Shown: positions 3,799-33,825 of the stretch, piece by piece
Position numbering within the stretch: the first letter of the stretch is position 1
How the letters are laid out: the number at the start of each line of letters is the position of its first letter
Source of the DNA: Jaapia argillacea MUCL 33604
Taxonomy: Eukaryota; Basidiomycota; Agaricomycetes; Jaapiales; Jaapiaceae
Direction of reading: 5' to 3'
NCBI GenBank assembly: GCA_000697665.1
Contig: KL197714.1
Coordinates: 301,850 to 336,483 of the forward strand
DNA: 34,634 nt
Notes under the pieces: model-generated
The model's database searches: none
What the model was told of the DNA's origin: nothing
What the model saw: only the letters and a program-made list of their open reading frames with translations
Position numbers and translations under genes: made by a program

Positions 3799-4556
3799 CT
3801 AGCCCTTGATCCCATACTTTTCCCAATATTCCTCCATGCTCGCCAAGTCTTCCTTCATGCCATTCTTGTCCAACCAAACCATGAGATCTCTCATTTTCAA
3901 AATAGCTGTCACTCTTCCAGCCCCGCCCACGACTTCTTCCACTTCCCTAACCGTACTGGCTCCATCCTTCCCAACTTCTTCTCGATCGAGCATGAGGACC
4001 ACACCAATAACCTCGCCTCCTTCCTTCTTGATCTTGTCAATGGAGCCTCGAATGGCAGTCCCCGCTGTCATGACGTCGTCCAGAATTAATACTTTTTTGC
4101 CCTTGACTGGCACGCCCACCATCACGCCTCCCTCTCCATGATCCTTCGCTTCCTTCCGATCATACGCAAATCCAACATCCAGGTTGTGCTGGCTATACAA
4201 CAGCAGTGATGTGCACGCTGCTAGTGAAATGCCTTTGTACGCAGGTCCGAACAGCACATCAAAAGGGGGAAGCGGCGATGAAGGCGCAGACAGGGATTTG
4301 GCAATTGTAGCTGCGTATGCAGAGGCTACGGCGTTAAGGAGGGACCCGGTAGATATGAGACCGGCATTGAAAAAGTAGGGAGATGTTCTGGACGATCACG
4401 CCGTTCAGGGTTTACAACTCGTGGTCTAGGATGAAGATGATGGGACGATGAGACGAACCGGCCTGATTTTAGAACAAACGAGCCAAATTTCAGCGAACCC
4501 ACTTGCATGGATTTCTCAATAAGATCCGTTTGGTAGGGTTGTAGTGAAAATGCCAT
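3799..4556 (-). CDS. URA5: Orotate phosphoribosyltransferase, two exons
   Basis: Catalyses orotate + PRPP to orotidine 5'-monophosphate + PPi, the fifth step of cytosolic de novo pyrimidine synthesis. The model is complement(3799..4387, 4459..4556), 228 aa, a usual length for fungal OPRTases. The 71-nt intron (4458-4388) joins KSGR to TSPYFFNAGL, which reconstitutes the conserved KSGR..PYFFNAG block. The PRPP-binding loop VLILDDVMTAGTAIR lies in the C-terminal half, and LFGPAYKGI is the usual OPRTase segment before it. The start (MAFSLQPYQ) is placed where family N-termini begin; an in-frame upstream Met at 4691 would add 45 residues that look unrelated to the family. The gene is divergent from the channel gene. 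All key motifs are intact. Confidence 0.96.
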
Positions 4557-5065: not shown

Positions 5066-8000
5066 ATGTATGCTACCGACACGGAGAAGGGAGAAGGTAA
5101 CTCCATTGACCCCAGGAACGTCGATCTTGGCTCCGACGATATCCGGGATGTTGAGAGGGAGGAGGTAGGAGACGACGCGGTAAATTATGGATCACCCCTT
5201 GCCACTGATGTCGAGGAGGAGCCGGAAGCGGAGAGGTCCATTACCGTTCGTCGCGCGAAGAACTTTGACAGGACGACGACTCTTGACCGAACATCCACTT
5301 GGTCCTCGGATTTTACCACCTCACCACCCGCCTCGAACTGGTTTACGAAATTCCGATCCTTCTTATTCCCAGACAAGGACTCGGATATCGACATTTACCT
5401 CCCCACGTACCGCACAACCCCTATCATCTCCGGGATCATCATTCCGTTTTCCATCTTACTGGAAATTCCAGGCTTGACCGACCGTTGGTACATCCGTACT
5501 GAAAACAATCATATCGTCGAAAGCCGGCCGAATCCATCCATCTTGGACATTGGTTTAGGCTTATCTATGGCTTGCGCCTTGGTGGCGAACCTTTGTCTCA
5601 TCGCTCGTTTTATGGAGAAGCGAGTGAAAGCGATGACTCTCCTAGCTATCTTCGCGTTGACCGTTCATGGTGTGTCCTTAGTTTCTGTTGGTGGTCCCAC
5701 TTTTTTTCTGCGCGGTGATGGTCGCCCGAACTGGTCCGAATATATCCCGCGTCTCACACTTTATTCGCTTCGGTTTGTGTGGTAGGCACAGGATCCCATC
5801 TTTTCATTGTAAACGATGGATTTCCTGTGCTCACCATTCATTGTGCAGTTCCTGTACTCTTATCCGCTCTGATTTTGCCAATTACGGCTACGAGCCCCTA
5901 CTTGTATCTAAGGATTTACATCCTTATGATATCATGGATCCGTGGCTTTTGCTCATGGATGATCCATACCACCTCCCCCCTACCGGTGCATCTCGACCAT
6001 TTGGGGTATCTTCGACCGAGCCAGGGTCGATTCTCGTCACTTACGAGACGGCTTCTCATTCGGATCAGGCTCGAGGACCATCCTCAAGCACCGCATGTGT
6101 TGATCCGTTGCTTACTTTATCGATCGCGTTGTGCTAACTGCCTCTTATCCCCCCTTGTGAATAGATATTATCAATGTCACCGCTGTCACAATATTTGGAA
6201 TCGAACATCGATTTGACGACGGATTTACCTATGGTCAAGCGTTTTGGTTAACATTGTGTTCGACCATCGCTTCCGTTATGACCAACATCTCGTTGGTCGT
6301 TGATCTCGTCAGGACGACGGATTTCTCCAAAAGTGGTCAGTATTCTCGTTTTGATCTCGTGCCCTGGGTTTTTGTTGAAGCGGCTTCGTTTCTTTCTAGG
6401 CAGCGGACTAACGCACAAGCAACGTTCCCTCGTTATTATTGTTATGATCCTTCTACTCCAAATCGCTCTCGGCGCGCTGATAAACTCAATTCTAAACCAC
6501 CTCTCGTTCATCGACGGATTATATTTCACCGTCGCATCCATTGAAACTATCGGTTATGGTGATGTTGTACCGAAGACGACCGGGGCTCGGGTCTTCATTT
6601 GTTTATTTTCGACCGTCGGTATAATTAACTTGGGTTTAGCGGTGGGGATGACGAGGTACGTTTTTCGACGGTTCTTCCATTATTCTTTTCTCACCGCGGT
6701 TTAGGGAAACTATTATTGAAGGGTTGGAAGTAAGCTATAGGAAGCGGGTCCGAGAGTTAAGGGCGCATCGTAAGGCGGAGAAGGATAAACGGAAGGCTCT
6801 TTCTCGATGGCGAGCTACCATCGAAGCCAAACTTCGAGATTTGGGAGTTGACGTCTGGGTGCCTGACGATAACCACCAAGGAAGGGACGGGGTTGGCGGA
6901 GATGAATACAACGGCGAGAAGGAGACCAAGTTTATCCGTCTCTACGAGCGAGTCGTTCACGTCCATTGGCTCCCGGAGTTCATCAGTCGACATTCCCGCC
7001 ATCGACATACTTACGACGGTACCCATGCATACGGACATCACGGGATGAAACTCAATATCGACAAGTTATCGCCTGCTCAGCTGGAGGCTTGCTCTTTGGA
7101 AGCCGGCGTCCCTCTCGACACCGTTCTGCCAACCTCGCACACGGCTCGACGAGCTCACGCCCAATGGTTATCATACTGGTGGGGGCATAACGGGCATCCG
7201 CACCTCCCTCAGTTCTTACCCAGCTTCGGGGCCCGGAAGATCATCCACGCTAACGCTATACGCCGTCAGGACGCGGAGATGCAGGAGGCGAACGGTTTCG
7301 GGAGTTCGGGCGCTTACTTTGATCGCGAGCATCTGCGGGATCAGAGACCGAAGAATAGGACGCATGCTCAGCTGGGACAGATGGCGGAGATGATGACGAG
7401 GTTTGCGATTGGTCTTCAGGGTGCCCATGTACATGCTCACGATCAGCGGACGATTCGTGAGAGTGGTACTACGAGCCCGGTTCCGGAAGAGACGTTCGGC
7501 TCGGATGTCGTTTCGAGGACGAGCATCTCTGATCGACGTGTCGAATCACCTGCACCGATGACGGAAGGTGTCAACCTTGATACTGATGACGACGATATCG
7601 GCAATAGTACGGGTGGTAACGCTACTCCAATGCCTAGAGGAACTGGTGACGAGAATAACGGCAATAGCGACAATGACGACAGTCCTGGTCGTAATCGGGC
7701 CCTCTCGTTCAGGGAGGTCTTGACCATGCCTTCGAAAACAGAACTCGAATTATCCCAGAGTCGAGTGCCGGGGATTTCCAGGGTCGGGAAACCCAAACGC
7801 GATGACTCGGACAGCGTGTCAGTGTCCTATGACAGCTTCAAGTCGACTCTTCAGAGCGAAGAGAAGAAGGCGTTCTATGCGAAGGTACGAAGCTTCCCCC
7901 CTTTCTCACAAGTTAAAAACTGAGTGAACGATGATCAGTTATTCGTGGCATGGGGGCTGTTTCTCATGTTTTGGACGGTATGTTTATTTCTTCCTCCCTT

Positions 8001-10711: not shown

Positions 10712-10761
10712 CGCGGTCCATGGACCAAAAAAAATAGATCAATCAGAGTCCATGGACCGCG
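10712..10761. repeat. 14-bp perfect inverted repeat, 22-nt spacer
   Basis: CGCGGTCCATGGAC at 10712-10725 is repeated in inverse as GTCCATGGACCGCG at 10748-10761. Each arm also contains the self-palindrome TCCATGGA. The spacer includes a run of eight A. It sits about 70 nt upstream of the start of F-box gene A. Copy B (20797) keeps only the right arm. Confidence 0.85.
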
Positions 10762-10832
10762 TTTGAGACCGCGTCGTGCACCACTGTTCCCGTTGCCTCT
10801 TGGACTACACTGGTCCGACTCTGGAACGCGAC

Positions 10833-13777
10833 ATGGCCTACAAACTACCTGACGAACTTCTCAAGGAGATACTTTCGCCGAGCCTCCATGTACCGGATGA
10901 GAAGTTCGCTGATACATCCGGGCCTTCTATATTCTTTCGTTTTGACCTTTCCACTTCCGCTTGCTTACTCGTGTGCAAACGATGGCTGAGAGTCGCCACA
11001 CCTCTCCTGTACGAAGTGGTTGTCCTATGCTCCAAGGCACAGGCACAAGCGCTCTCCCAAGTCTTCGCATCCAACAAGCAACTTGCAACTTTCGTCAAGA
11101 AGTTGCGTGTGGAAGGGGGTATGGTATGCCGATGGAGAAGATCATCAAGGCGTGTCCGAACATTAAGGATCTGTATCTCAGCCTTGCTCTTTACTCCACC
11201 GACAGCGTCTCGGGAATTTGTCGCTCCCTCTCTTCCATAAATCCCACCNNNNNNNNNNNNNNNNNNNNNNNNNNNNNNNNNNNNNNNNNNNNNNNNNNNN
11301 NNNNNNNNNNNNNNNNNNNNNNNNNNNNNNNNNNNNNNNNNNNNNNNNNNNNNNNNNNNNNNNNNNNNNNNNNNNNNNNNNNNNNNNNNNNNNNNNNNNN
11401 NNNNNNNNNNNNNNNNNNNNNNNNNNNNNNNNNNNNNNNNNNNNNNNNNNNNNNNNNNNNNNNNNNNNNNNNNNNNNNNNNNNNNNNNNNNNNNNNNNNN
11501 NNNNNNNNNNNNNNNNNNNNNNNNNNNNNNNNNNNNNNNNNNNNNNNNNNNNNNNNNNNNNNNNNNNNNNNNNNNNNNNNNNNNNNNNNNNNNNNNNNNN
11601 NNNNNNNNNNNNNNNNNNNNNNNNNNNNNNNNNNNNNNNNNNNNNNNNNNNNNNNNNNNNCCCACCGACAGCGTCTCGGGAATTTGTCGCTCCCTCTCTT
11701 CCATAAATCCCACCAGACTCATTCTCTACGAGTCTTCCGACCACCTCGATAATTCAAACACTAGGCAACTGACCGAGGCGCTTTGTGCATCCATCTCCTC
11801 GAACTGGAAAGCGCTGGTAAGGTTGTCGATGACTCTTGTGTGTTTATGACTGACGCTAACCGTTTTAGGTCGTATTCCACAACCCATATGTTGAACACAC
11901 CAGTAAATGGGTCTTCAATAGATGGAGGGCCATCATTTCTGCTCTTTCCAATTCTCCCAGCCTCCGCGAGGTGACTTGCTCATCCTCTCCCGTAATGATA
12001 TCCCACACCTTCGAGATGCTGGCTAAAAATCCCCACCTGCTCGTCATTCGATTCAAACTTAACCACGACGGCCGCAAGAAACGCTACCTTGAGGAGTCTT
12101 TGGACAAGACATCACGACTGGCGAAGTTGATCCAATTTGACCGCCCTCCGTGAGCTACCATAATGCCTTTACTCCTTTACTGCTCCTCAATTTTTCTCTT
12201 AGGGCCCAACGTCCTGTAGATATCCACTTTCCCGTAATCTCCCCTGATTCGTCTTATATTCCAATGGCCTCGACATCCATTGAAATACGAAAGAAGTTCT
12301 GGGCCCAAATTCTCTCGTTTGCGATGTGGAGTGATTGGTGCGATAGGGATTTTGTTGTGGCAGATAGCACATTGTATATGGACAGCAGGATCGGCCTTAC
12401 GCGACAGAACCTACTGACGATATCAAAGGAATTTTACGTATGTTCCCCTTACGCTTGCTTTCCCGAGGACATGAATTGATTCCAGGATGTCCTAGAAAAT
12501 CGGGCTACCTCTCCTATATGCTTATCCCGTTGTACTAGGGCAACGCCGACTTTGCCTTTTCGCCACTCAAATCGCAACCAACCCCGCCCTTGGTTCCCAC
12601 ATTCGATCGATCTTCTTCCTCGTCCCTTACCTTAACGGAGACTTTCCCGGACGTGTCGAGGAAAGTATGGCCCGAATTGTCGCTGCAACGAGCAACCTCA
12701 CTCGTCTACACGAGCCTTGCGACGCTCGTGGTGTTGGGTTGCCTATGAGAGGAGCGACCTTTTTGAAGCTCGTGGAAACATCTGGATCTTCCCTCCTCAC
12801 ATTGAAGGGTATCAAAGTGCTAGATGATCTCGACCCACCAGTCGACCCACCTTCATTCTCCATCTTCGATAATTTTAGAAGGCTTCGTTCACTGGAATGG
12901 AGATCGACGATGAAATTCCAGGACGCTGAAGGCTCAACATCGACGTCCTACCTACCATCTCTTGAATATCTAAAGCTTCAAGACTGTTCCAATAATTTCC
13001 TTGATCAACTGTCGAACCTGAGGTATTCCGACCTTCACTGATTGCGACTCCTTACTCATCATCGTTCGAATCTAGCTTACCATCCCTAGCGCACCTTGAC
13101 TCGGGCGGCCGGAATAGTAGACCCTCTCTCCAACGGTTCTTCTCGAAACATGGCTCAAAGCTTCGGGACGTGGTAGCAAACCCTCATCCTGAGGGTATCT
13201 CTTTCTTCGATCTCTGCCCAAACGTTACCCAACTCAAGTTAACGGCCATCAACCAGGTAGGCCTCAAAACCTGCTTTCCTATCCACGGACCGCGATGATC
13301 CCACTTCTTTACTCTAGGCTCCTCCTTCAACTCTTTTCAAATGCACTACACCACATCGCTACCTCACTCACGTGACGGTCTCTGCATTTGAGTACGTCTT
13401 TTTTGCTGAGTCGATGGATTGCCTCCAACTCTTTCATCGTTTTATACTATGCAGATACGCCAGATCAGACGCAAAGATGTGTTCTCGTCAACGAGACGCA
13501 TGGTCGGCGTTTTTCAAAGATGTTGACTTGACTTCGTTCCCTGCTTTGAAGGAGATCAAATTTTTGGCTTGTGAGTGGCCGAAAGATGAGTGAGTGGGGA
13601 TTTGTGTCTACTTCTTGCACATCCTCGACTCACAAGTTTGATCCCGTGTTGCTTAGGCGTGCAATATCGAAAAACCTTTGGGTCAAGTCTGCAGATGAGT
13701 TCAGGAACAAGTGGGGTGTATTGTTGGCCGACTTCGAAGGGAGGCATTGGAAGTCCAGGCTGAAGGGTTCGCGGTGA
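10833..13777 (+). CDS. F-box-like/LRR protein, copy A (frameshift and assembly gap)
   Basis: Probable substrate adaptor of an SCF-type ubiquitin ligase, by family. Exons: 10833-11816 (containing the N run), 11869-12149, 12203-12437, 12496-13022, 13076-13256, 13318-13391, 13455-13589, 13657-13777. If the gap is collapsed on its 53-base shared flank, the product would be about 690 aa. An N-terminal F-box-like module (LPDELLKEIL ... LLVCKRWLRVATPLLYEVVV) is followed by leucine-rich segments, a second F-box-like module (RKKFWAQILSFAM ... ISKEFYKIGLPLLYAYPVV) and more leucine-rich sequence. Compared with copy B, one base is missing in a G run near 11119, which shifts the frame after the VEGG segment. 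All seven introns and every later exon are open, so the lesion is recent or a sequence error. Confidence 0.75.
11196..11714 (+). repeat. 53-bp exact repeat flanking the N run
   Basis: Bases 11196-11248, immediately left of the N run, are identical to 11662-11714, which begin one base after it. Gene copy B has this stretch once. The repeat is therefore most simply the overlapping end of two contigs. Confidence 0.95.
11249..11660. other. Assembly gap (412 N)
   Basis: Run of undetermined bases inside exon 1 of F-box gene A. Comparison with copy B leaves no missing sequence to be placed here. Confidence 0.99.
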
Positions 13778-13965
13778 CCATGGAACTTGCGTCGTCGTTT
13801 AATTACGTCGTGCGCGAATGCAGAGGGGCAACCGGTTATATTACACAGACAGCACAACTTAGATATCAGAACGGGAAAACCGACTGCGTTCCCAAGCTAC
13901 CACACACACATCACATCGGCTACAAACTGAGGAACTCAGCATGCTCCGCGCTCATGTTCCGAGCT

Positions 13966-20567: not shown

Positions 20568-20796
20568 CCCGGCTGTAGCACGATGTATCAGTAGGAGATG
20601 TGGGATTGCAATGTCAACGCCGCCAAGGGCGTAGGGAGAACAAATTTGATTCAGAGTTCAATTCCATTGGCCCACCATCCAGGTATAGAAACAGATAGAA
20701 ACAGAGCTTTTTGATGCACCAGCTTCACTCATCGGAGCTAAGTATCGTCAGTTCATGCAAGCAATCGTGGGGCAATGGGCTGACAGGGATGGACTA

Positions 20797-23413
20797 GTCC
20801 ATGGACCGTGTCTGAGACTGCGTCCCCGTTACCGTTACCGTTATACGCCACTGCCTCTTGGTGAACTGCTCTGACGTCCGACTCTGGAGCCGCAACATGG
20901 CCGACAAACTACCTGACGAAATTCTCAAGGAGATACTTTCACCGAGCCTCCATGTACCGGATGAGAAGTTCACAGATACCTCCGGGCCTTCTGTATTCTT
21001 TCGGTTTGACCTCTCCACTTCCGCTTTCTTGCTCGTGTGCAAACGATGGCTGAGAGTCGCCACACCTCTCCTGTACGAAGTCGTTGTGCTATGCTCCAAG
21101 GCACAGGCACAAGCGCTCTCCCAAGTTTTCGCAACCAACAAGCAACTTGGAACTTTCGTCAAGAAGTTACGTGTGGAAGGGGGCTATGGTATGCCGATGG
21201 AGAAGATCATCAAGGCGTCTCCGAATATCAAAGATCTATATCTCAGCCTCGCTCTTTACTCCACCGACAGCGTCTCGGGGATCTGTCGCTCCCTTTCTTC
21301 CATAAGTCCCACCAGACTCATCCTCTACGAGTCTTCCGACCACCTCGATAATGCAAGCACTAGGCAGCTAACCAAGGCGATATGTGCGTCCATCTCCTCG
21401 AACTGGAAAGCGCTGGTAAGGGTGTCGATGTCTCTCATGTGTTACATCATTGAAGGAGGCGTTGTTGTAGGGCGTATTCCATACACCGTATGTCGATCGT
21501 GGCAGTGGCAAGGTCTATAGTAGATGGTCGGCCATCATTTCTGCTCTTTCCAACTCTCCTAGCCTCCGCGAGGTGACTTGCTCATCCTGTCCCTATGTGG
21601 AGTCCCTCTCATTCCACATGTTGGCCAAAAATCCTCACCTCCTCGTCATTCGATTCAAACTTAAAAACGAGAACGAAGGCCGCTACCTCGAGCAGACTTT
21701 GGACAAGACATCACGACTGGCGAAGTTGATCCAATTTGACCTCCCTCCGTGAGCTACTATTATTCCTTTATTCCTTTACCGCTCTTCAAACCTCCTCGTA
21801 GCGCCCAACGTCCTGCAGACATCCACTTTCCCGTAGCCCTCCCTGATTTGTCTTATATCCCAATGGCCACAACATCCATTGACGTACGAAAGAAGATCTG
21901 GGCTCAAATCCTCTCATTTGCGATGTGGAACGATTGGTGCGATAGGGATTTTGTCGTGGCGGATGTCATATTTTATAAATCCAACAAGATTGGACTTGCG
22001 CGACAGAACCTCCTGACAGTATCAAAGGAGTTTTATGTACGTATCCCTCGCGCCTGCTTTCCGCAGATCTTGTACTGATTGCCTTCGGGTGTCCTAGGAA
22101 ATCGGGCTACCTCTCATATATTCTTATCCAGTGTTGTTAGGACCATACCAACTTTGCCATTTCGCCACTCAAATCGCAACATACCCTGCCCTTGGTTCTG
22201 AAATACGCTCGATCTTCTTCCATGTCACATACCTCCACGGAGACTTACCCCAACTCGTCGAGGAAAGTATGGCCCGAATCGTCGCAGCAACGAGCAATCT
22301 CACTCGTCTGCATGAGCATTGCGACTCTCGTGGTGCTGGGTTGCCGATGAAAGGAACGACCTTTTTGAAGCTTGTGGAAACGTCTGGATCTTCCCTCATC
22401 ACGTTGACGGGTATCAAAGTGTCCGAAAATGTCGTCCCACCAGCCCGTCCACCTTCATTCTCCATCTTTGATAATTTGAGAAGGCTTCGTTCACTAGAAT
22501 GGAGGTCGACGATGGAGTTTCAGGACACTGCAAGCCCAACATGGACATCCTACCTCCCATCTCTCGAATATCTAAAGCTTCAAGATTGTTCCAATAATTT
22601 CCTTGATAATCTGTCGAGCCTGAGGTATTCCAACCCCCGCTGATGGCGACTACGTGCTCATCCCCTTTTGGATCCAGCTTACCTTCCCTAGTGCACCTTG
22701 ACTTGGGCGGCCGGAACAGTACACCCTCTCTGCGACGGTTCTTCTCGAGCCATGGCTCAAAGCTTCGGGACGTGGTGGTAAACCCTCATCCTGAGGGTAT
22801 CTCTTTCTTCGACCTCTGCCCGAACGTTGCCCAACTCAAGTTAACGGCCATCAACCAAGTAGGTCCCGAACCTGCTTTCCAGTGCACCGACCGTGATGAT
22901 CCCACTTCTCCACTCTAGGTTCCTCCTCCAACCTTTTACAAATGCGCCGCACCACATCGCTACCTCACTCGCGTCACGATCTCTGCATTTGCGTGCGTTT
23001 TGTTGACGAGTTGATGGCCTGCTTCCAACTCTTTTATTCTTTTTTACCATCCAGATACTCCAGATCAAATCCAAAAATGATCTCGCGCCAACAATCCGCA
23101 TGGTCCCCACTTTTCAAAGATGCTGACTTGACTTCGTTCCCTGCTTTGAAGGAAGTCCAATGTTTGGCTTGTGAATGGCCGAAAGATGAGTGAGGATTTT
23201 GCTTCGTTTTCCCACACCTCCTCGACTCACGTTTGATCCCGTGGTGGTTAGACGCGCAATAGCGAAAAACCTTTGGGTCGAGTATGCAGACTATTTCAAG
23301 AACAAGTGGGGTGTATTGTTGGTCGACTACGAAGGGAGGCATTGGAAGTCTAGGCTGAAGGGTTCGCGGTGACTATCGAACTGGCGCCGTCGCTTAATCA
23401 GTGTTGTGTGCGA
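20797..23413 (+). repeat. Direct segmental duplication, copy B
   Basis: Partner of 10748-13818. Homology begins at GTCCATGGACCG and runs about 40 nt past the stop codon. A short (CCGTTA)3-like run lies in its 5' flank near 20825-20842. Confidence 0.9.
20897..23372 (+). CDS. F-box-like/LRR protein, copy B (intact)
   Basis: Exons 20897-21415, 21471-21748, 21802-22036, 22098-22624, 22678-22858, 22919-22992, 23055-23189, 23252-23372; all introns are 53-62 nt with GT..AG and the product is 689 aa. N-terminal F-box-like module (LPDEILKEIL ... LLVCKRWLRVATPLLYEVVV, residues 5-60), leucine-rich segments, a second F-box-like module (VRKKIWAQILSFAM ... VSKEFYEIGLPLIYSYPVLL, about 290-360), then leucine-rich repeats (LRRLRSLEW, LPSLEYLKL) and a C-terminus ending GRHWKSRLKGSR. 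F-box proteins usually recruit substrates to SCF ubiquitin ligases; the target is unknown. The start codon is conserved between the copies; an in-frame Met 39 nt upstream is not. Confidence 0.85.
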
Positions 23414-23697
23414 ACCGATCACCGGCATGCCGATGACTGGTGTGACTGACAACTCTGGTACTGAGGCGACCCGCCCTCCGGGTTCATCATCTGTGGGTCA
23501 TGTGTCTAGTTGTGCATTCTCGATTTTGGTCGTACCCCTGTGTTTGGGTTTAGAGTACTAAGACGGCGAGCGGGCCCATGATGGACACCACGCTTCCTAG
23601 TTCCATATTGTCCTTTCATCACATCTCATCTGTGCAGGTAGACTCGCAGTGCAACCAGAGTTGGACTAGTGACGGTATCTCGAGAATTTTATCCACT
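23414..23697. other. Intergenic, nothing seen
   Basis: Between the F-box duplication and the remnant of the zinc-cluster array. No gene or repeat recognised. Confidence 0.5.
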
Positions 23698-23754
23698 TCA
23701 ACTTGAATGCCCCTTCCATATTGTCATTCCCATGGGGCTGTCGAAGACATTCAT
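23698..23754 (-). pseudogene. Degenerate first exon of a zinc-cluster unit (delta)
   Basis: Reads MNVFDSPMGMTIWKGHSS then stop. The first seven residues match the MNIFYSP start of the intact units, but the Cys-x2-Cys half-cluster is lost. The DNA around it (about 23700-24115) matches the right end of the array at 33630-34050, including the upstream flank, so it is a decayed array member. Confidence 0.6.
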
Positions 23755-23886
23755 GATCAGATGGATACGACCCTCGAGGCGCAATCGAAGGGAAACCCAC
23801 TGGTGCTGCTTCAGACCTTGACTTGGCGCACCTTTATGCGAGCCGTCATCCGAACTCGAACTATCTGGGAGCGGAATTAAGCTAGC

Positions 23887-24195: not shown

Positions 24196-27100
24196 TCACC
24201 TCCGGCGTCCCCGGTTCACCATGCACCCATGTTGACCCGATTCGCATCTCGTGCACGGGCCAGTAGGGTTTGGGAACACACATCTGACCTGCATGATGGG
24301 AACGAACGATGCAAAAGGACCCTGGTTTATAGACGGTTGGGTAGGATAGACGTCCCGGTGGGATCTCCGTCAAAATGGGCCAAGGTCGGGTGCCATCCAG
24401 GTACTAAACCTCAGTTTCGACGGAGACGTCGGATACCTGGTCTCGGTAGATTTGCTGGAAGTGTTGGAAGGTCGGATACATCATCCCGGTCCCCACCGCA
24501 GATTAGCACATGAACGCATGTACGGTTGCTGAGATCTTGATATGTTCGACTTCCATGTCAGGTGGATCCAAAACAAAGACTAACAACTCAGTTTTCGACG
24601 TGGCGTGGCTCGCTTCCATCGCTTCCATCGCTGTCGTCGTTGGCATCGAATATCGTCGATCCCGATTCCCTTGTGCCCATATGCCCTGTGGCCTGTTCAC
24701 TATCGGGAATCGTGCTCTTTCTCATCAAACAAACAAGTTCCATTCGCAAGACCCCAATCATGATCAGTACTATAAGCTGTCCCACCGCAACAAGACAATA
24801 CCTATTTCTCAGTTGGTAATCTGATTCGTATGAATCATACTGACCGTCCATGCGAATCGAGATTTGCGATGTCATGCAGACATGATGGAGTACGCTGGGA
24901 TCGGTGAGCTCAATATCATCTAGGACCCTTCGATTCATGCTGACATATAACCCAAAGCTTTTATATCTGAGGGAGTGATTTGCCTGAATTCCAACCTCTT
25001 TGCTGCTTTTTCCAACTCCCCTCGATGTCCCGAAAGACCTCCTTGGCGAGGAAGCCATCATACGAGCAGTTCAGACCCACTCGCACCGATATGACCACTC
25101 TGCTCTCATATGTTCGCTGGTGCTTTTACTTGACCACGGCACTAGTTTTCCTTTGCACCATTCCTTCATCTCATTTGATTGTGGTCTTCCAGACCATCTT
25201 GGATTCTCATAAACCGAGAATCCATGGTTTTCCGTTTACAATTGTCTGCCCATTCTCTCTAGTCTTCGGAGCCCTGAGTTTCGTGTGGGGTAGGTTTCTG
25301 CTTGGATCGATAGTTTTATGTGATCTCACTTCTTTGAAAGCTTGGTTTTGTTCAGTGGACTCACAATCTGCCATCAGCTTCCTTCGGTCTCCTCTCCGCC
25401 AACATTCTCATCCATCCAATGTTTCACCTCAATACCATACCCTTGTCAAACAGAGTTTGACCTATTTTACTGTTCGCATCCAAGGTCTCCCCAATCGACC
25501 ACGCGAACTTTGTGTTCGTGAGTAGATTGCTTATTTTTCGTGAACTCCGTTGTTGAGAGCAGTTTCATCAGTAATCAGTAATGAGACAATTGTCTCTGCA
25601 CTGCGACGTGATATCTCCCGTCTAACGGGCCTACCAACTCACCTTCGCTACTCTTTGTACCTAGATTCTCATCCACTACCCCTTCCTGATAGCGCAAATC
25701 TCGTCAGTCGGGGCATTGGCTTTTTTTCTACCATACGCGTTCACGTCCCCATACTTGGAGGTTCCCGAGATATCAACCAGAATCACGATCTCAGTCAAGC
25801 AGAGAATCGAAAGCGGAATCGAGGTGATTCTGATGCTAGTGCTGATGGTATATCTTTTCCCGTCCCAATTTCTCGTTCTTCACCACTAACCTTTTTAAAC
25901 CTCTTCTTAAGGTCAAGAATCCGATTTGATCTTATCCTCTGGCAAGGGAAAGAGCAAGTTTGAACCTCCCCCCAATAGTACAAAGTCAAAAAAGCAGAAA
26001 ACCATGTTTCGGAGAGGTGCATCTTATCTTTCGCATTTCTTGGAATGCGGTTGACTAACTGTTTACAAACTAGGCTCAGCAAATGGCGGTTTATCTTCGT
26101 CTACTGCTGCACCTGAAAATGCCACCTCGGGACTCGATGCAATCTCTGTCGAGGATTCTCAAGACACTGTGGCCGACGAATCACCTCCCCCATTTGATCC
26201 TTTGTGTTGGATAAGTCAGGGAAAGCGATACAAGGATGTACCAATGGTTGTCTCCTTGGAGTTGTGTCGTTGTGTTAGTCTTCCGACCTTGGCCACCTTA
26301 CTGCTTCCGCCAAACGATATGCCTATCCTCGATCTTCTCAATTTCACCCTCCCCTGCATTCTGGGTTCCTTTCAACTCATCCCACCCACTAGTTGCTTCT
26401 CTTCGGACACTCCCAACACTGGTTTTGATAGCATCATAACCCAGCCAATCCCTCCTCGTGAATTCGTGGAGCAGCTGCGAGCCGCCGCAGGCCAGGCTAT
26501 GTTGGATGGAATGCTATCCATCCGTAGTTGGCGAGATAAAGTGTCACCCCTCCGGCTTCCATTTAGCGTGATGTCGTTTTGGTTGGCGCTCCATGTCTCG
26601 ATATCTGCCAAAGACGATTGGGCTCGGGCGGCGAAGTGGCTTGGGTCATTTGGTACTCCATCTCAGGACCTCGCCAAAGCATGCGCGCACTCTCACCATT
26701 TTCTGTCTGTCATCCCATGGAACCAGCAGATTTTGTCGTACGGTCATGTTGGAGAGTTTGCCCAAATGCTCCGAAATGGGTTTCTCAGCGATATCGTCAT
26801 CAATGCGATGATTCGTAGAATCAATTCTCATTTGAAGCGCTCCCCATCCCCTCCAGCCATCGTCATCACAACTCTCCAGCTTTCCACATACCTCGTCGGT
26901 AACACCTCCCTCACGAAGAAGTCGCCTTCCACTCACCCACCATACAATGCACAATCAGTGGGTTACCTCCAGGATATGGGCAGACGGGTTACCGAGAGTG
27001 CTTGTACTCGGCTCCTCTTCCCATTCTATAGCCCACCACACCATTGGGCTGTAATCTCCATCGACATTCCCCTTCGCACCATCCGTTGTGGTGACTCCAT

Positions 27101-30100
27101 CGGTAGGAGCTGTCCCAAAGTGCTCGTTACAGCGCTTATCGCGTGGCTTCGACACCATTTCGGTGGTCGGCCGTTCACTTTCTCCAACAACCTTCCGTGT
27201 GCCGACCAAGGTGACGATAGTGTCTCTTGTGGCATCATCGCAATTAATACTCTCAAACACCACGCCTTTGGAGAGGTACTGTGGTCCAAGACAAACCGGG
27301 AGTTGCTGCGAATTGAAGAGTTCAATAATATCCTTGGTGACTTCGTAGATTCGTTGGATTCCGAGGGTGTGTCTCTGGTAAGTATTCTACGCATGAACTC
27401 AGGATTCTGTTGTACTGACAATCGATTCCAGTGTAGTGCTCAGAGTACTCCAGTATCTGTGGCTCTGACAGCTCCTCCCTCAACGACATCATCACCGCTC
27501 GCATTGTCTCCGCCCTGTGGGCCCTCAAGCACAGCCTCGTTGGTGGTTACAGTTGATCGTCGGGATAATGAAACTACTCCAGCATCTACAGCCTTGACTA
27601 CTCCTCCCTCAACGACATCATTGCCGTTCACATCACCTCCGCCCTCTGAGCTTGCCTCGTTGATGTTTATAGTCGATCCGCGGAATAGTGAAACTACTCC
27701 AGCGTCTACCGCTCCTCCCTCAATGACATCATTGCCGTTCACATCACCTTCGCCCTCTGAGCCCTCAAGCGTTGCCTCGCCGACGTTTACAGTTGGTCCG
27801 CGGAATAGCAAAACTACTCCAGCGTCTACCACTGCTCCCTCCATGACATCACCGCCGTTTACATCACCTCCGCCCTCTGAGCCCTTCAGTGTTGCTTCGT
27901 TGATGTTTACGGTCGATCCGCGGGATAATGAAACTACTCTAGCGTCTACAGTTCCTCCCTTCATGACATTATCACCGTTCACATCACCTCTGCCCTCTGA
28001 GCCTGCAAATGTTGCTTCGCCATCATCTACAGCCAATCCGTGGGATAACGAAAGTACTTCAACATCTGCGTCTCTTTCTGCCGCAGGATGTACACCTGTA
28101 TCTCCTTCCTCCTCGATAATGTCATCACCACTTCCATTACCTTCACCCTCCGAACCCTCCAATATTATCGAATCTACATCTACCAGTGACATTCGGGAAT
28201 TGGATGTTGAGACCCATCTCCACCCACGATGTAATCCTGCTCCGAGTCCAGGATGCGAGGATCAGCATTTCAATGTACTTGGAAAGCGTGCCGTTCCTGA
28301 TCCAACATTACCCCCAACCAAACGTGTTTGCGCTAAGAAATCTATAACGCCGAGTGAATCTACGGATTTTGGTCCAGTTGGAATCAGCCGTTCTGCCGTC
28401 GCAGCAAAAGTGTTGATGGCCGATGTGGCAGCAGGAACACATACCATCGACAAGGAGAAGTGGGAGAATTATATTGAGAAAATTCTGGCTATGGACCCAG
28501 ATGCCGAGGTTGAGCAAGACGAACCTCTCCTTGTCCGCCATTCCGTTTGCGGGAAGGACTTCAAACAATGGCCCCTCTATGATACGGGCAACTTCAAGAA
28601 ACATCTTGAAAAGTGCAAGAGATCCACCCGACCTGCTGGTGGGACACACACGATATCCTTCCTCTTCAAATCCCTTGGTCGTCAGCAATCTTCGTCGTCA
28701 TCAATACCCCTTTCATCTGCTCACGCTACTCGTCCAACGGCCTCGCCGTCAGAACAGTATTGGCCCTGCCCTGGATTGAGTGAGAAGGACGACTCTCGAA
28801 TTCCTGTCTATCTCTCGCGTACTCAAGTCTCCAGTGCCGGTGGCAAGTCCGCTCTAGTCATAGCCAGGCAATATTTCCCTGATATCGTAAAGATCAAGCA
28901 CCTCTCAGACAACCAACGAGACATCGTTGATCTCGCACAGAAGCATAGCCACACCTGGCGGAACGACCACATTCGGCGACGCATCTTTTCCATTCGTTGT
29001 TCAGAACGGGTGCTGCAAGCCCCACGCAATTCAGATACAAAGCCATGCGTGCCGTGTTTCGCCCTTTTGAAGATGTCGAACTTCAAAACTGCGTTGAATC
29101 GGAAGGAGCCCAATTTGAAGAACAAACTTTTCACACCTGACAAGTATCTCGTAAATCCGGAGATTTCCAAGGTAGTGGCGAAGAATCCTGCTCTTCAAGG
29201 CATTCTTTCTGAGTCAGTGAGTCCTATATCTTAGTCATGTTCGGCTTGCAGTTGTTAACCCCTAGCTAGGACAAACCCTTTCTCTCCACGTTCATCACAC
29301 AGCTCCTTGCGGGGAAGTTTGATAAGGCACCGGTCTTCACGGAACTCCTCCAAGTCATGGCGGATGTTGTCAATCGAGAAGACCGCGGCATTGGGCTTCG
29401 AAATATGCATTATCCCACCAACTATGACCAGTGGGCACATACAATGCAGATCATTGCACCCCGCGCATACCGTCAGTTCAAGAACATATTTCCCTCCCGC
29501 AGCGAGAGAAGCCATCGTGAACGTCGTTCAATGTCACCCAAATTTCGACAAGGAATCCACATTGGAATCGATGAGCGGCTCACCAAATACTGCTCCGATT
29601 ACAACTACCCCTCTGACGCGCCACTTGCCCAGGGTGCTGATGACACGAAGCTCCATCATGCCTTTCGCCCGTCATTCGCAGTTGATAAGGGCAAGTGGTT
29701 CATATACGGGTCCATTGGGCAACCATTCGAAGTTGCCGATCCTGCGGAGTTACAGGCTCAGCTTGATGCCGCAGAGTCCCTGAAAGCGGACAAGGTTCGC
29801 TTATGGATCATACAGATCCCCCTCCCATATGTGCCCCCTCTTGTGCTTGCCGTAGAACCCATAGGCGCCAAGACCAATGCCACCCAGCTCGCTTCATTCG
29901 AAACGAAGCTCCTCTCCTACATCATTCCCAAATTCACCGTTATCTCTATTGCATCTGACGGTGCTGCTCCAGAGTGAGATGCCTGCAAACTTCTCGCCGC
30001 GAGCAATAAGCACCTTGAGTACCGGATTCCGCATCCTGGAGAGGGGATGCCTCCATTGATCTTCTCCATGATCAACCTGGACGGCGCTGTTCTGACAATT

Positions 30101-32837
30101 ATCCAAGATCCCAGCCACTGTCTGAAGACCTTACGGAACAATCTGTTCTCTGGGGCGCGGTTGCTTGTCCTTGGCCAGCACCCAATCTACTATGAGCAAA
30201 TACGAAACATGGCATTCGATGATGCAGGACCCCTCTACCGCCGCGATGTTGAGAAGCTTGACCATCAAGATGATCGCGCAGCTTCGCGACTATTCTCCGC
30301 AACAGCGTTGAAATATCTGGTTGAATCATACCCAGATAATCTGGGACTTGCAGCCTATCTATTTGTCTTCGGTGATATGGTAGATGCCTACCAGAACCGA
30401 GCGATCTCCCACCTAGAACGTGCGAAGATGGTCCTCTGAGCCAAGTTTTTCAAGGACATATGGAAGACCTTCCTTCAAGAAGCCGGATATCCCAAGGCTC
30501 GATACTACATCTCGCAAGAGGCTGACGACATTAGCGATATCCTCATCAATGGATATATCTCGCTACTTATCATCCACCGGGATCATTTGGAACGGCCTCA
30601 TGCATTCCCGCTCCTTCCTTGGCTTCATGGCACATCCCCAAACGAGCATGCATTTGGGACGTGGCGCTCTGTCCTTGAAGATCCTACAATGCTCGACATC
30701 CTTCATCTCGTCCCGAAAACTGATGCAATGCTTCAGTCGGCATGCCAAGTTCAGTACTCATCGAAGGCTGATTTCAAGAAGACGGCATCGGGCTACCACC
30801 ATACCTACTTCAGTGGCGAAGGGGCAAACCTTCATGTCCTGGCTGAGTACCCCTCCGACTCCGAGATTGCCGATGCTGCGAAGGCAGCTTTTGAGGAGGC
30901 AATGATGTTATGGGATCTCCTCGGATATGACCCCTCTACCTCCCACTCGCCCTCTCTACCTTCGCAAATAATCATCGACTCCTCAGAGGCCGAAGATACT
31001 CTGGATGAGGAAGCCCATGATGGTAATGATGGCGAGGCCATATGCAATACCGAAGAATCATTATCCCCCAATGCCGACCTCCAAGCGGCTCTTGACGAGA
31101 GTCGACGCGGTCAGATCGAAAGCCCCGTTGTTGATACTTGCCTCGACGAGTGTAGTTACGCTGCGGTAGCTTTGAGCATTCAGGACCTTGCTCAGATGTG
31201 AGTTTTCCGATTGTAGCTGTCCTCATTCAAAGCTGACCTGATTCGATTAGCACCAGCCTCCCAGAAGATGATCCCGAGACACTGGCAATCATTCGGGATC
31301 GACTCGGCGCTGTACTGTCTGCCATCGCGAAGACAGGCCCCAAAGCTGCGGCCGAAGTCAAGATTCTCATAGCTTCAACATGCGGACCAGCATCTTCTTC
31401 GCCCTCTCACCCCACTTCCCAGGACATCCTAGCACCTATTGATCTTTCTGGCACAAATTCCGAAGACACCAACCGCACACTCGTACCTTTCAGCCTATCC
31501 CCGCTTGTTGCCTTGCGAGAGGGGCACCAAACGACCGAGGCCCGGGATGGTGTTCGTACCCGCAGCACTACTGTTGGGCCTGAGCAAATCTTGAAAGCAA
31601 GCTCTGTTCGTCTTGAACTTGCCAGAAAAATATGGGATGTCATTCGTCGAGATCAGGCCATTGGGACCCAAACTGGTCTTGCGAGACAGCAGAGATACGG
31701 AAAAGCTGCCGCGGGATCAGCCCTGGAGACGCAAGAAGCTGCTACTGGCAACACCGAGAATGCACGACTTGCTGCTCAGGCAGGAGCAGGTGAGGTCAGT
31801 ATGATCATTCTCATTCCGAGTTGCGGAGGCTTTGAAACTGATTCGTTATTGTTTACAAAAGATTGTCCGTCGACGGCGTACTGTTTTCAAGGGGCTCAAG
31901 TGTTGCGACACTGTTTCTACGGCCAAGATCGATCGGCTAACCCTGCTGGAAAATGGCGCTTATGGTATTGTGATCGTTGACGGAGAGCTTATGATTGGAA
32001 AAGGTGAGTTCCCTTTCGGGAACATATTGTTGATTTTGCGACTCATTTACTACTGGCTTGCAGTTCTGACAATGTACGAGAAAGGAGGCGGGAAGAACGG
32101 CAAGCACGCTTGGGTGTCATCCTCATCCACCATCGGTGCAATATCCTACCTTGCCGTCCAACTCTGGCACCAATCGCATGCATCACCACGACAATTTCGG
32201 GGTGTCCACGGAAATTTATCTGCAGCTGGTCTCATCCGCTTTGCACATCTCCCTCCCGGCTCATTCCTCTCCATCATACCTGATCCTTCTGCATCCGTTA
32301 ATGTCAAGGATGGAGGGCGTATTCTCGATCTTACAGCAGCTTGTTATGCAACTTTATTCTCGAAGCTGTTGGAGGAAAAGGCTGCTCTCGTGACCGCAGT
32401 GAAGAAGCTGAACAATCCGAGAAGGAAAAAGGATGCTGGGGAGGCATCAGGAGGAGAATCCTGAATATCTGGGGGGTTTCTGGTGCCATGGGATGCTTTG
32501 TGTATATTTCTACATTTTTCCGGGATTTATTCGAATTTATAGATGTTGGATATACCGGTCCAGGTAGATCTGGGGGGGTTGGTATAATGTCTCATATAAT
32601 CCAAGTAAAATATCGCCCAAGTAGCTATATTTTTGTACAGTACGCGCAATGGGAGGGTGAGGCTGTCTATATCCGACCCAACCGTCTATAAACCAGGGTC
32701 CTGATGCAAAAGGGGATGGGGGTCAGTACGTCTTGCATTTTGGTAGAACTTGTGAGGCAACGACGCGAGATGATTGGAGAGAGTACCTTGAGTTTCTTGC
32801 AACGAACACATGCTCCTGGGCTGTAGAAGATATTCAT
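24196..32837 (-). CDS. Zn2Cys6 mini-gene gamma, intron holds the transposon
   Basis: Exon 1 is 32787-32837 (MNIFYSPGACVRCKKLK), exon 2 is 24196-24288 (VRCVFPNPTGPCTRCESG..). Together they give C-x2-C-x6-C-x8-C-x2-C-x6-C, the exact ligand spacing of a fungal Zn(II)2Cys6 (GAL4-type) DNA-binding cluster, in 47 aa. The intron is interrupted by the 8.4-kb element 24316-32702; without it and one target copy the intron is 103 nt, equal to that of gene beta. Exon 2 ends in TGA directly over a GTGATA that could instead be a splice donor, so a longer protein is possible. Expression across the insertion is doubtful, since the likely branch site (TACTGAC) is now 8.4 kb from the acceptor. Confidence 0.7.
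24308..24315. repeat. Target-site duplication, left
   Basis: GATGCAAA, identical to 32703-32710 on the other side of the element. Confidence 0.93.
24316..24348 (+). repeat. Left terminal inverted repeat
   Basis: The first 27 bases are perfectly inverted at 32676-32702; extending to 33 bases adds one mismatch. Confidence 0.95.
24349..25024. other. Element 5' leader
   Basis: About 0.7 kb between the left terminal repeat and the first supportable coding sequence. Open frames on both strands (for example 24588-25061 minus) are short and unrecognised. The element's promoter should lie here. Confidence 0.5.
25025..32464 (+). pseudogene. Ubl-Ulp1-zinc finger-transposase gene with two in-frame stops
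   Basis: Exons 25025-25517, 25563-25847, 25912-26016, 26074-29216, 29270-31197, 31251-31794, 31862-32003, 32064-32464; frame is kept over all seven introns (2347 codons). Domains: ubiquitin-like fold about residues 144-231 ending LGG; Ulp1/C48 cysteine protease with His (HHWAV, 27042), Asp (CGDS), Gln (ADQGDD) and Cys (SVSCG); Pro/Ser/Thr repeat; zinc-finger-like HSVC..HLEKC, where the first ligand is His; transposase core with Asp 29570 (GIDERL), Asp 29957 (SDGAAPE), Asp 30107 (DPSHCLKTLRNNL) and Glu 30644 (SPNEHAFG) as candidate catalytic residues; Lys-rich C-terminus. TGA at 29975 and 30437 each stand where Arg is expected (DGAAPE-x-DACK, MVL-x-AKFF). Otherwise the frame is undamaged, so decay is recent. 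The N-terminus is uncertain. Confidence 0.85.
27447..28064 (+). repeat. Coding minisatellite, 120-bp unit, about five copies
   Basis: The string GAAACTACTCCAGCGTCTAC and its variants recur at 27570, 27690, 27810, 27930 and 28050, exactly 120 nt apart. Each unit encodes 40 residues rich in Pro, Ser and Thr (core LPFTSPPPSE, then DPRN/D-xET). The multiple-of-three unit keeps the frame, and the antisense frame is also open, which explains a long minus-strand ORF there. Confidence 0.92.
32465..32669. other. Element 3' non-coding region
   Basis: Between the stop codon of the transposase gene and the right terminal repeat. No feature recognised. Confidence 0.6.
32670..32702 (-). repeat. Right terminal inverted repeat
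   Basis: Inverse of 24316-24348, with 27 of 27 outer bases identical. Confidence 0.95.
32703..32710. repeat. Target-site duplication, right
   Basis: GATGCAAA, identical to 24308-24315. Confidence 0.93.
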
Positions 32838-32868
32838 GATTAGACGGATACCGACCCTCGAAACTCAA

Positions 32869-33253
32869 TCAAAGGGAAACGCACAGTCGCGGCTTCGCAG
32901 CCTGACTTTGCCCAGCTTCTTGCGGATTGTGATCCGAACTCGAATTACTTTCCTCCGAGACTCGGTTACTGTCAGTTTTATCATCACTTTCCTCGGGGAA
33001 TCGGCTAGGTCCCAGCCCCTTCACCGCCTTGACGCACTCCATTCCCGTAGATTCACACCTCGTGCACGGATCAGTAGTGTTTGGGAACACACATTTCATC
33101 TGCATAACGTGGTCAGTACGTTTTGCACATCATGGCGGCAATGGGGTTCATGGAGATCGTAGAGCTCGGGAGGCAGCGATGTGGGATGATGGGAGAGATT
33201 ACCTTGAGCTTCTTGCAACGAACACATGCTCCTGGGCTGTAGAAGATATTCAT
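32869..33253 (-). CDS. Zn2Cys6 mini-gene beta
   Basis: Exons 33203-33253 (MNIFYSPGACVRCKKLK) and 32869-33099 (MKCVFPNTTDPCTRCESTGMEC..), intron 103 nt, 93 aa. The joined cluster is C-x2-C-x6-C-x8-C-x2-C-x6-C, a perfect GAL4-type zinc cluster, expected to bind DNA in the nucleus. After the cluster comes a short acidic Ser/Asp/Glu-rich tail (FPEESDDKTDSNRVSEES) and no dimerisation or activation domain. Usual zinc-cluster regulators are 500-1000 aa, so this is either a free-standing small protein or a fragment. The Met start is the first in the unit but was not confirmed by other evidence. Confidence 0.65.
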
Positions 33254-33284
33254 GATTAGGCGGATACCGACTCTCGAAACTTCA

Positions 33285-33675
33285 TCAATGGGAAACGCAC
33301 AGTCGCGGCTTCGCAGCCTGACTCTGCCCAGCTTCTTGCGGGTTGTGATCCGAACTCGAATTTCTCTCCTCCAGGACTCGGTTACTACTGTCGGTGATAT
33401 CATCACTTTCCTCAGGGAGTCGGTGAGGTCCCAGCCCCTTCACCGCCTTCGCGCACTCCACTCCCGCAGATTCACACCTCGTGCACGGGCCAGTAGTGTT
33501 TGGAAACACACATTTCATCTGCATAACGGGGTCAGTACGTTTAATTGCACATCATGGCGGCAATGGGGTTCATGGAGATCGTAGAGCTCGGGAGGCAGCG
33601 ACGTGGGATGATGGGAGTGATTACCTTGAGCTTCTTACAACGAGTACATGTTCCCAGGCTACAGAAGGTAATCAT
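33285..33675 (-). CDS. Zn2Cys6 mini-gene alpha
   Basis: Exons 33625-33675 (MITFCSLGTCTRCKKLK) and 33285-33518 (MKCVFPNTTGPCTRCESAG..), intron 106 nt, 94 aa. Zinc ligands and spacing are the same as in beta, with the same acidic tail (LPEESDDITDSSNRVLEE). It is the first unit of the array in the direction of transcription and the one with the conserved upstream flank, so it is the unit most likely to have its own promoter. An in-frame Met at 33762 would add 29 residues. Confidence 0.65.
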
Positions 33676-33825
33676 AATCGGATGAATACCGACCCTCGAA
33701 GCGTTATCAAAGGGAAACTCACAGTCGCCAACTCGGAACCTGGACTTCTTGCCAGCTGTCATCCGAACTCGAATTATCCTCCTCCGGAAGTGGGTTACTT
33801 GTACTCGAAGACATTGTTAAGGTAT

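Follow-up and report, generated by a model that had tools for sequence, protein, structure and literature searches.

The stretch of DNA analyzed here, called the window, comprises 34,634 nucleotides of contig KL197714.1 of Jaapia argillacea MUCL 33604. It contains an element of 8,387 bp (positions 24316-32702) that is bounded by terminal inverted repeats (TIRs), flanked by 8-bp target site duplications (TSDs) and occupied by a single predicted gene. Coordinates of the element and its gene are positions in the window, and loci with a C number are contigs of the same genome (43.7 Mb, 95 contigs), which was searched for copies and relatives. One second copy, L012, is used throughout for comparison. 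The features of the locus are:

24308..24315, no strand: left 8-bp TSD GATGCAAA, from the sequence and an 8-mer pair scan
24316..24341, plus strand: left TIR, 26 bp perfect, extending to 24348 (33 bp) if one mismatch is allowed
25025..32464, plus strand: single predicted gene, ten exons, 2,303 codons, nine GT-AG introns, frame kept throughout
Exons 1-5: 25025-25289, 25356-25517, 25572-25847, 25912-26016, 26074-27377
Exons 6-10: 27432-29216, 29270-31197, 31251-31794, 31862-32003, 32064-32464
25124..25289, plus strand: two hydrophobic, membrane-like segments, amino acids ~34-59 and ~66-88 (Kyte-Doolittle)
25460..25762, plus strand: predicted ubiquitin-like domain (Ubl), exons 2-3, ending in LGG, with Gly205-Gly206 at 25757-25762
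26784..27308, plus strand: C48/Ulp1 cysteine protease (Pfam Peptidase_C48), His593, Asp610, Gln648, Cys655
27446..28067, plus strand: Ser/Thr/Pro-rich linker of ~120-bp repeats
28539..28616, plus strand: BED-like zinc-finger motif, H-x2-C ... H-x3-C, by eye, no Pfam match
29639..30646, plus strand: predicted DDE-type core, Asp1423, Asp1529, Asp1579-x2-His1582, Glu1758, from an alignment with relatives
29975..29977, plus strand: in-frame TGA stop in exon 7, not in the L012 copy
30437..30439, plus strand: in-frame TGA stop in exon 7, common to the L012 copy, a sense codon in two distant relatives
31862..32200, plus strand: C-terminal domain, similar by eye to relatives on C13 and C21, no Pfam match
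32677..32702, minus strand: right TIR, 26 bp perfect, starting at 32670 (33 bp) if one mismatch is allowed
32703..32710, no strand: right 8-bp TSD GATGCAAA, from the sequence and the 8-mer pair scan

The TIR sequence AGGACCCTGGTTTATAGACGGTTGGG is perfect at the left and right end of the element. Among 11,648 identical 8-mer pairs in the window (pairs more than 1 kb apart; 8-mers with more than 40 copies excluded), the GATGCAAA pair is the sole one enclosing 12-bp inverted ends with at least 11/12 matches, and a shuffle control of 20 windows (2-bp blocks) gave no 8-mer pair enclosing inverted 12-bp ends. A sequence-only reading of this DNA had described a complete 8.4-kb transposon with TIRs and an 8-bp TSD; with the repeats at both ends, the duplicated flanks and the shuffle control, this description holds to the base, and we regard it as virtually certain that positions 24316-32702 are a transposon. 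When the flanks are joined with one TSD, BLAST aligns them over 479 bp to the paralogous stretch 33050-33528 (82.7%, 3 gap positions). Because a second alignment with other penalties was gappy at the insertion point, this paralogous stretch is only fair evidence of an empty site. The element seems to have been inserted into a local repeat. Repeated sequence is found on either side of it (23735-23863, 32743-33386 and 33159-33799).

Elsewhere in the window, two duplicated segments (10747-13818 and 20796-23414) are 83-89% identical and contain frames that look F-box-like by eye; the F-box-like frame at 20858-21517 had no Pfam match, and a run of N (11249-11660) interrupts one copy of the pair. 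On the minus strand, positions 3802-4257 encode a phosphoribosyltransferase domain (Pfam, 45.5 bits) and are perhaps an orotate phosphoribosyltransferase gene.

The nine predicted introns of the transposon gene (GT-AG, 53-67 bp) were picked by hand on the basis of splice sites, frame and conservation, and exons 1-5 and 7 can be aligned with the L012 copy. This model retains the single gene filling the element that had been read from the sequence before, but replaces its eight exons by ten and adds the two in-frame TGA stops, which had gone unmentioned. Due to these two stops, the window copy is dead: what the fungus carries here is an autonomous DNA transposon of the cut-and-paste type in inactivated form.

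Nevertheless, the protein was maintained by selection for a long time, as indicated by low dN/dS values of 0.14-0.22 for core, Ulp1 and Ubl. These values were determined by the Nei-Gojobori method between the window copy and the L012 copy only (dS 0.51-0.71) and are 0.14 for the core, 0.20 and 0.18 for the two halves of the Ulp1 region, 0.225 for the Ubl, 0.40 for the linker after the Ubl and 0.53 for the hydrophobic part. In both copies, inactivation was apparently a late event. An ancestral shared stop at 30437 as cause of death is disfavored, since the dN/dS downstream of the stop (0.121) is about that upstream of it (0.143). Parallel, independent mutation at a mutable site is the simplest and likelier reading of the shared stop, which might also be read through. 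In the aligned core, L012 has 57 CpG sites and the window copy 102; CpG-to-TpG/CpA differences number 57 on the L012 side and 18 in the opposite direction. This heavy CpG loss in L012 is a methylation- or RIP-like decay, as expected of silenced copies.

The protein predicted from this gene begins with the two hydrophobic segments, followed by Ubl, C48/Ulp1 protease, zinc-finger-like motif and a core containing DPSHCLKTLRNNL. The order of the latter four modules had been proposed before and is confirmed, with a C48 match in Pfam (22.0 bits); the two hydrophobic segments ahead of the Ubl were missing from that list. At both segments, 19-residue Kyte-Doolittle means exceed 1.4 in the window, in L012 and in a hAT relative on C10; a few further stretches of the window protein likewise exceed this value.

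The domain encoded by exons 2-3 very probably has a Ubl fold. Its homologue on C10 (58% identical) scores 20.8 bits (E 3.2e-4) with the Pfam ubiquitin model, short of the cutoff of 25.4; the Ubl of the window and that of L012 gave no match to this model. By itself, the window Ubl weakly matches Coilin_N in Pfam (E 0.062), a model of a Ubl-type fold; the L012 Ubl has no such match. A three-row Ubl profile reached ISG15 in PDB at E 0.065 only. The LGG end with its Gly-Gly is kept in all three copies (window, L012 and C10), and the residues immediately after it differ. The spacing between the last strand and the Gly-Gly is the same as in ubiquitin, and LGG is in register with the C-terminus of ubiquitin. 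A genome search with Ubl exon 3 found three places in all, namely the window, C1 and C10.

The Ulp1 domain of the window scores 22.0 bits with Pfam Peptidase_C48 (PF02902) versus a cutoff of 20.7; the scores of L012 (16.4 bits) and of the C13 relative (17.1 bits) are below this cutoff. The putative catalytic residues His, Asp, Gln and Cys (HW, GD, Q, SCG) are found in both the window and L012, and the window domain aligns weakly with SENP3 (E 0.39). A Ulp1 domain 42% identical to that of the element lies in an open frame of 487 amino acids at C5:401169-402320. Core searches of the genome found no core-related sequence there, and by eye the open reading frames in the first 1.9 kb downstream contain no transposase. 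Antisense to the Ser/Thr/Pro-rich repeat, an open frame of 250 amino acids without Pfam match (27440-28192, minus strand) is probably a by-product of repeat composition. The zinc-finger motif takes the form C-x2-C...H-x3-C in the relatives on C13 and C59.

Copies and relatives of the element are found in the same genome. The L012 copy (C1:331800-341700) shares the left end, at C1:332093, and aligns in three pieces with 70-81% DNA identity as far as element position 6791, where it stops; its right end is lost. At C34:216173, ~1 kb of the element's right end is retained at ~90%. A genome scan for TIR starts (18 bases, up to 2 mismatches) gave 22 matches (11 + 11) versus 3 for a reversed control. 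Twenty of the 22, those with loci, were used for pairing (C39:127213 and C60:5150 were left out), and seven stayed unpaired within 3-kb loci (C34, C1:332093, C73, C79, C2, C6:398311 and C30). Four MITEs of 373-374 bp (C74, C1:3278714, C8:614955 and C95) have similar ends and an exact 8-bp TSD each. Two further short elements are degraded, one with a TSD matching at 6/8 bases (C8:228423) and one without TSD (C18:384798).

The core retrieved relatives on C13 and C21 that are 25-38% identical at the amino-acid level, and via C13 one on C59. The C13 element is a complete member of a sister family (C13:620999-627284, 6,286 bp) with ends AGGCCCCGGGC (24/26 matching) and the TSD GGTACCAG, whose exactness is built in because the scan demanded identical 8-mers. 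The same scan found no element ends at C21, where the right end alone is visible. The C13 element has its modules in the order of the window element, with Ulp1 followed by the zinc finger, the core and the C-terminal domain. Its Ulp1 reading frame has only about 260 bp ahead of it, and no Ubl was seen, either in the frames before Ulp1 or by the Ubl search of the genome. A 2.1-kb derivative of the sister family (C18:718221-720320), located by its ends, has the exact TSD CGTCCAAG. Thus, the search for further copies with 8-bp duplications that had been proposed from the sequence succeeded within the same genome: counting the window element, 7/9 paired-end elements of the two families and their short derivatives have an exact 8-bp TSD, one has 6/8 bases and one has none. 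These relatives corroborate where the window element begins and ends. Two L020 pairings, with five mismatches in the ends and no TSD, were kept out of the nine. Among the short elements whose ends were located regardless of flanks, 5/7 have an exact TSD. AGG-CCC-GG ends next to 8-bp duplications are common to the related elements and short non-autonomous derivatives.

We are confident that the core is a DDE cut-and-paste transposase. Its four candidate acidic positions, and His1582, are kept in every alignment row that covers them; the acidic positions are spaced 106/50/179 in the window and 109/49/189 in the C13 relative. No Pfam model matched the window core at E<=10, its profile had no matches among PDB sequences, and a search of viral contigs with a single protein found no relative. 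The core relatives gave stray Pfam matches only (PCNA_C, a phage tail domain and similar, E 0.034 or worse). An AlphaFold2 model of the core is poor (mean pLDDT 40.4, pTM 0.28), and the RNase H fold therefore stays putative. In this poor model, strands precede Asp1529 and Asp1579 but not directly Asp1423, and Glu1758 is part of a helix, the stretch leading to it from Asp1579 being almost wholly helical.

That the core fits no readily nameable superfamily, as the sequence-only reading had stated, is supported by the failure of all Pfam models, including those for P, hAT, KDZ and MULE. Of the affiliations suggested at that time, the P-like one is backed by the order and spacing of the motif only. 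In the Drosophila P transposase, the signature D230, D303, D339xxH, E531 has spacings of 73/36/192, as given in the portion of PMC8230255 consulted. The element has the same succession of residues, with a long stretch between DxxH and E, and roughly similar spacings, and the poor model has D1579 after a strand, E1758 in a helix and nearly only helices between. With the 8-bp TSD in addition, the element might belong to the P superfamily as a divergent form with a P-type RNase H core, in which the accessory domains alone are new. However, the core has no match to P-element Pfam models, the spacing between the first two aspartates is longer than in P, and the model places no strand directly ahead of Asp1423. 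PF21787 (P transposase) was found nowhere in the genome in a search run without positive control, and the THAP domain had no match in the pieces scanned, the linker 27432-28403 lying outside the scan. We consider membership in the P superfamily rather unlikely; the likeness is one of layout.

A hAT or KDZ element that has diverged beyond the reach of the models is far less probable still, even if both groups make 8-bp TSDs and a hAT of the same genome has the same Ubl module. The hAT dimerisation domain was not found in the element; the same model gives 39.5 bits on the control hAT on C10. The element ends start with AGGAC or AGGCC, unlike hAT TIRs, which begin with YARNG. The MULE transposase domain had no Pfam match in the window or in the pieces of the relatives. 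The KDZ affiliation that had also been suggested is contradicted by PF18758, which has at least 71 matches elsewhere in the genome and none at the element, its copies or relatives. In hhalign, the core profile against four KDZ sequences of the same genome gave a probability of 0.03%, both profiles being shallow. The at least 71 KDZ matches (in pieces), many with internal stops, also show a heavy KDZ load of this genome, which together with the short introns fits a basidiomycete host.

The hydrophobic segments and the Ubl are found in a second type of transposon. C10:991773-996588 is a complete hAT element of 4,816 bp with ends TAGTGTTGCTGGCGGTTCG(A/G) (19/20 matching) and the TSD CGTACTGC, which came from a scan demanding identical 8-mers. 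Judged by sequence, the hydrophobic-Ubl-GG module lies within these ends, upstream of the transposase reading frames. By eye, its introns inside and after the Ubl have the positions of those in the window gene, and a donor-like site stands where the window gene has its first intron. A start codon for the C10 module was not found, and Ulp1 searches gave no match in the C10 element. The module either passed from one kind of transposon to the other or reached both from a common source.

Taken together, we favor, with some reservation, a transposon whose one gene encodes a modular protein retained by selection, which would be a self-cleaving, membrane-anchored polyprotein. This reading is supported by the TIRs and TSDs of this and the related elements, the ten-exon gene, the low dN/dS values, the C48 match, the ubiquitin match of the C10 homologue and the Gly-Gly kept in all three Ubl copies. 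Two N-terminal hydrophobic segments would hold the single polyprotein in a membrane, the Ulp1 domain would cut after the Gly-Gly (Gly206) of its own Ubl, and the freed part of Ulp1, zinc finger and transposase could enter the nucleus. There, zinc finger and DDE core would bind the ends, excise the element and integrate it into target DNA with a stagger of 8 bp. As separate steps, cleavage by Ulp1 after the Ubl, in cis or in trans, is plausible yet somewhat doubtful, and we propose the membrane anchoring just as tentatively. The faster evolution of the hydrophobic segments (dN/dS 0.53) counts against this explanation. Further points against it are the core without Pfam or PDB matches, its poor model, the missing Pfam ubiquitin matches of the window and L012, the ISG15 match at E 0.065 only, and the C48 scores of L012 and C13 below the cutoff. 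The C13 sister family has Ulp1 with no Ubl seen, and the C10 hAT has the Ubl module with no Ulp1 match; neither thus needs the other in cis, which argues against self-cleavage.

The Ulp1 of the sister family, where no Ubl was seen, would fit a protease that acts on host proteins, stripping SUMO from the transposase or from proteins of repair or silencing at the insertion site, with the Ubl as an uncleaved docking domain. Such a function also agrees with the occurrence of Ulp1 or OTU domains in Ginger1, Mutator-type and Crypton elements, for which a role of Ulp1 in transposition or post-transposition repair is proposed in the consulted portions of PMC2836005 and PMC3212892 (the role in PMC2836005). 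However, it leaves unexplained why all three Ubl copies have Gly-Gly at the position of the C-terminus of mature ubiquitin, and gives no reason for the hydrophobic segments. Action on host proteins appears to us rather improbable, and the self-cleaving polyprotein is the reading we retain. Since Ubl and Gly-Gly stand directly before the protease in one polypeptide, it makes a precise prediction, namely one cut after Gly206.

The self-cleavage reading would bear on what Ulp1 and OTU proteases, which recur in unrelated transposons, do there; a role in transposition or the ensuing repair has been proposed (PMC2836005, as excerpted). Here, a plausible Ulp1 substrate, a Ubl ending in Gly-Gly, lies in the same polypeptide just upstream of the protease. 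The module common to a hAT of the same genome means that parts pass between transposon kinds or have a common source. Lacking any Pfam match, the core may represent a further lineage among eukaryotic transposases. The element is possibly a new superfamily. The fuller claim combines a new superfamily-level lineage of fungal DNA transposons, a transposase in the form of a membrane-anchored, self-cleaving polyprotein, and a membrane-ubiquitin module that acts as a portable cassette and is present in a hAT of this genome as well; it is speculative and, taken as a whole, unlikely.

Plant Mutator-type elements with Ulp1 are known as KI elements. As far as the consulted text of the sources goes, transposons bearing Ulp1 (Ginger1, Mutator type, Crypton) and fungal elements with 8-bp TSDs (KDZ) are already known. 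Ginger1, Mutator-type elements and some Cryptons resemble the element in encoding a C48/Ulp1 protease (PMC2836005, PMC3212892), but in the same excerpts Ginger1 has a Gypsy-like integrase, a C-terminal Ulp1 and a 4-bp TSD, Cryptons use a tyrosine recombinase, and no Ubl in the same protein is named for any of these Ulp1-bearing transposons. Among the matches listed in our literature search (titles and beginnings of abstracts; Repbase outside its scope), there was no description of Ubl and Ulp1 fused to one transposase. The hAT element on C10 likewise has an 8-bp TSD and carries the hydrophobic-Ubl-GG module, in which the positions of two introns and of a further donor-like site agree by eye with the window gene; it differs in its TAGTG ends, its dimerisation domain, the missing Ulp1 match and a transposase that is unrelated by Pfam. 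Like the element, Plavaka and EnSpm (CACTA) are fungal DNA transposons; the consulted part of PMC12730594 gives 3-bp TSDs for EnSpm and C(2)C and H(3-4)H motifs for Plavaka, and the element has no Pfam match to this group. KDZ (Kyakuja-Dileera-Zisupton) elements are likewise fungal, with 8-bp TSDs in Zisupton and a Dileera lineage according to the same part of PMC12730594, but the element matches them neither by model nor by profile, and by eye the motif of the third acidic residue differs. The P superfamily (Drosophila P element, THAP9) is similar in its 8-bp TSD and in D-D-[C/D]xxH-E with a long stretch from DxxH to E, as described in the excerpts of PMC8230255 and PMC7776569. In contrast to it, the element has neither a P match in Pfam nor a THAP match in the pieces scanned, carries a BED-like finger, and adds Ubl and Ulp1 to the transposase in a gene of ten exons within 8.4 kb.
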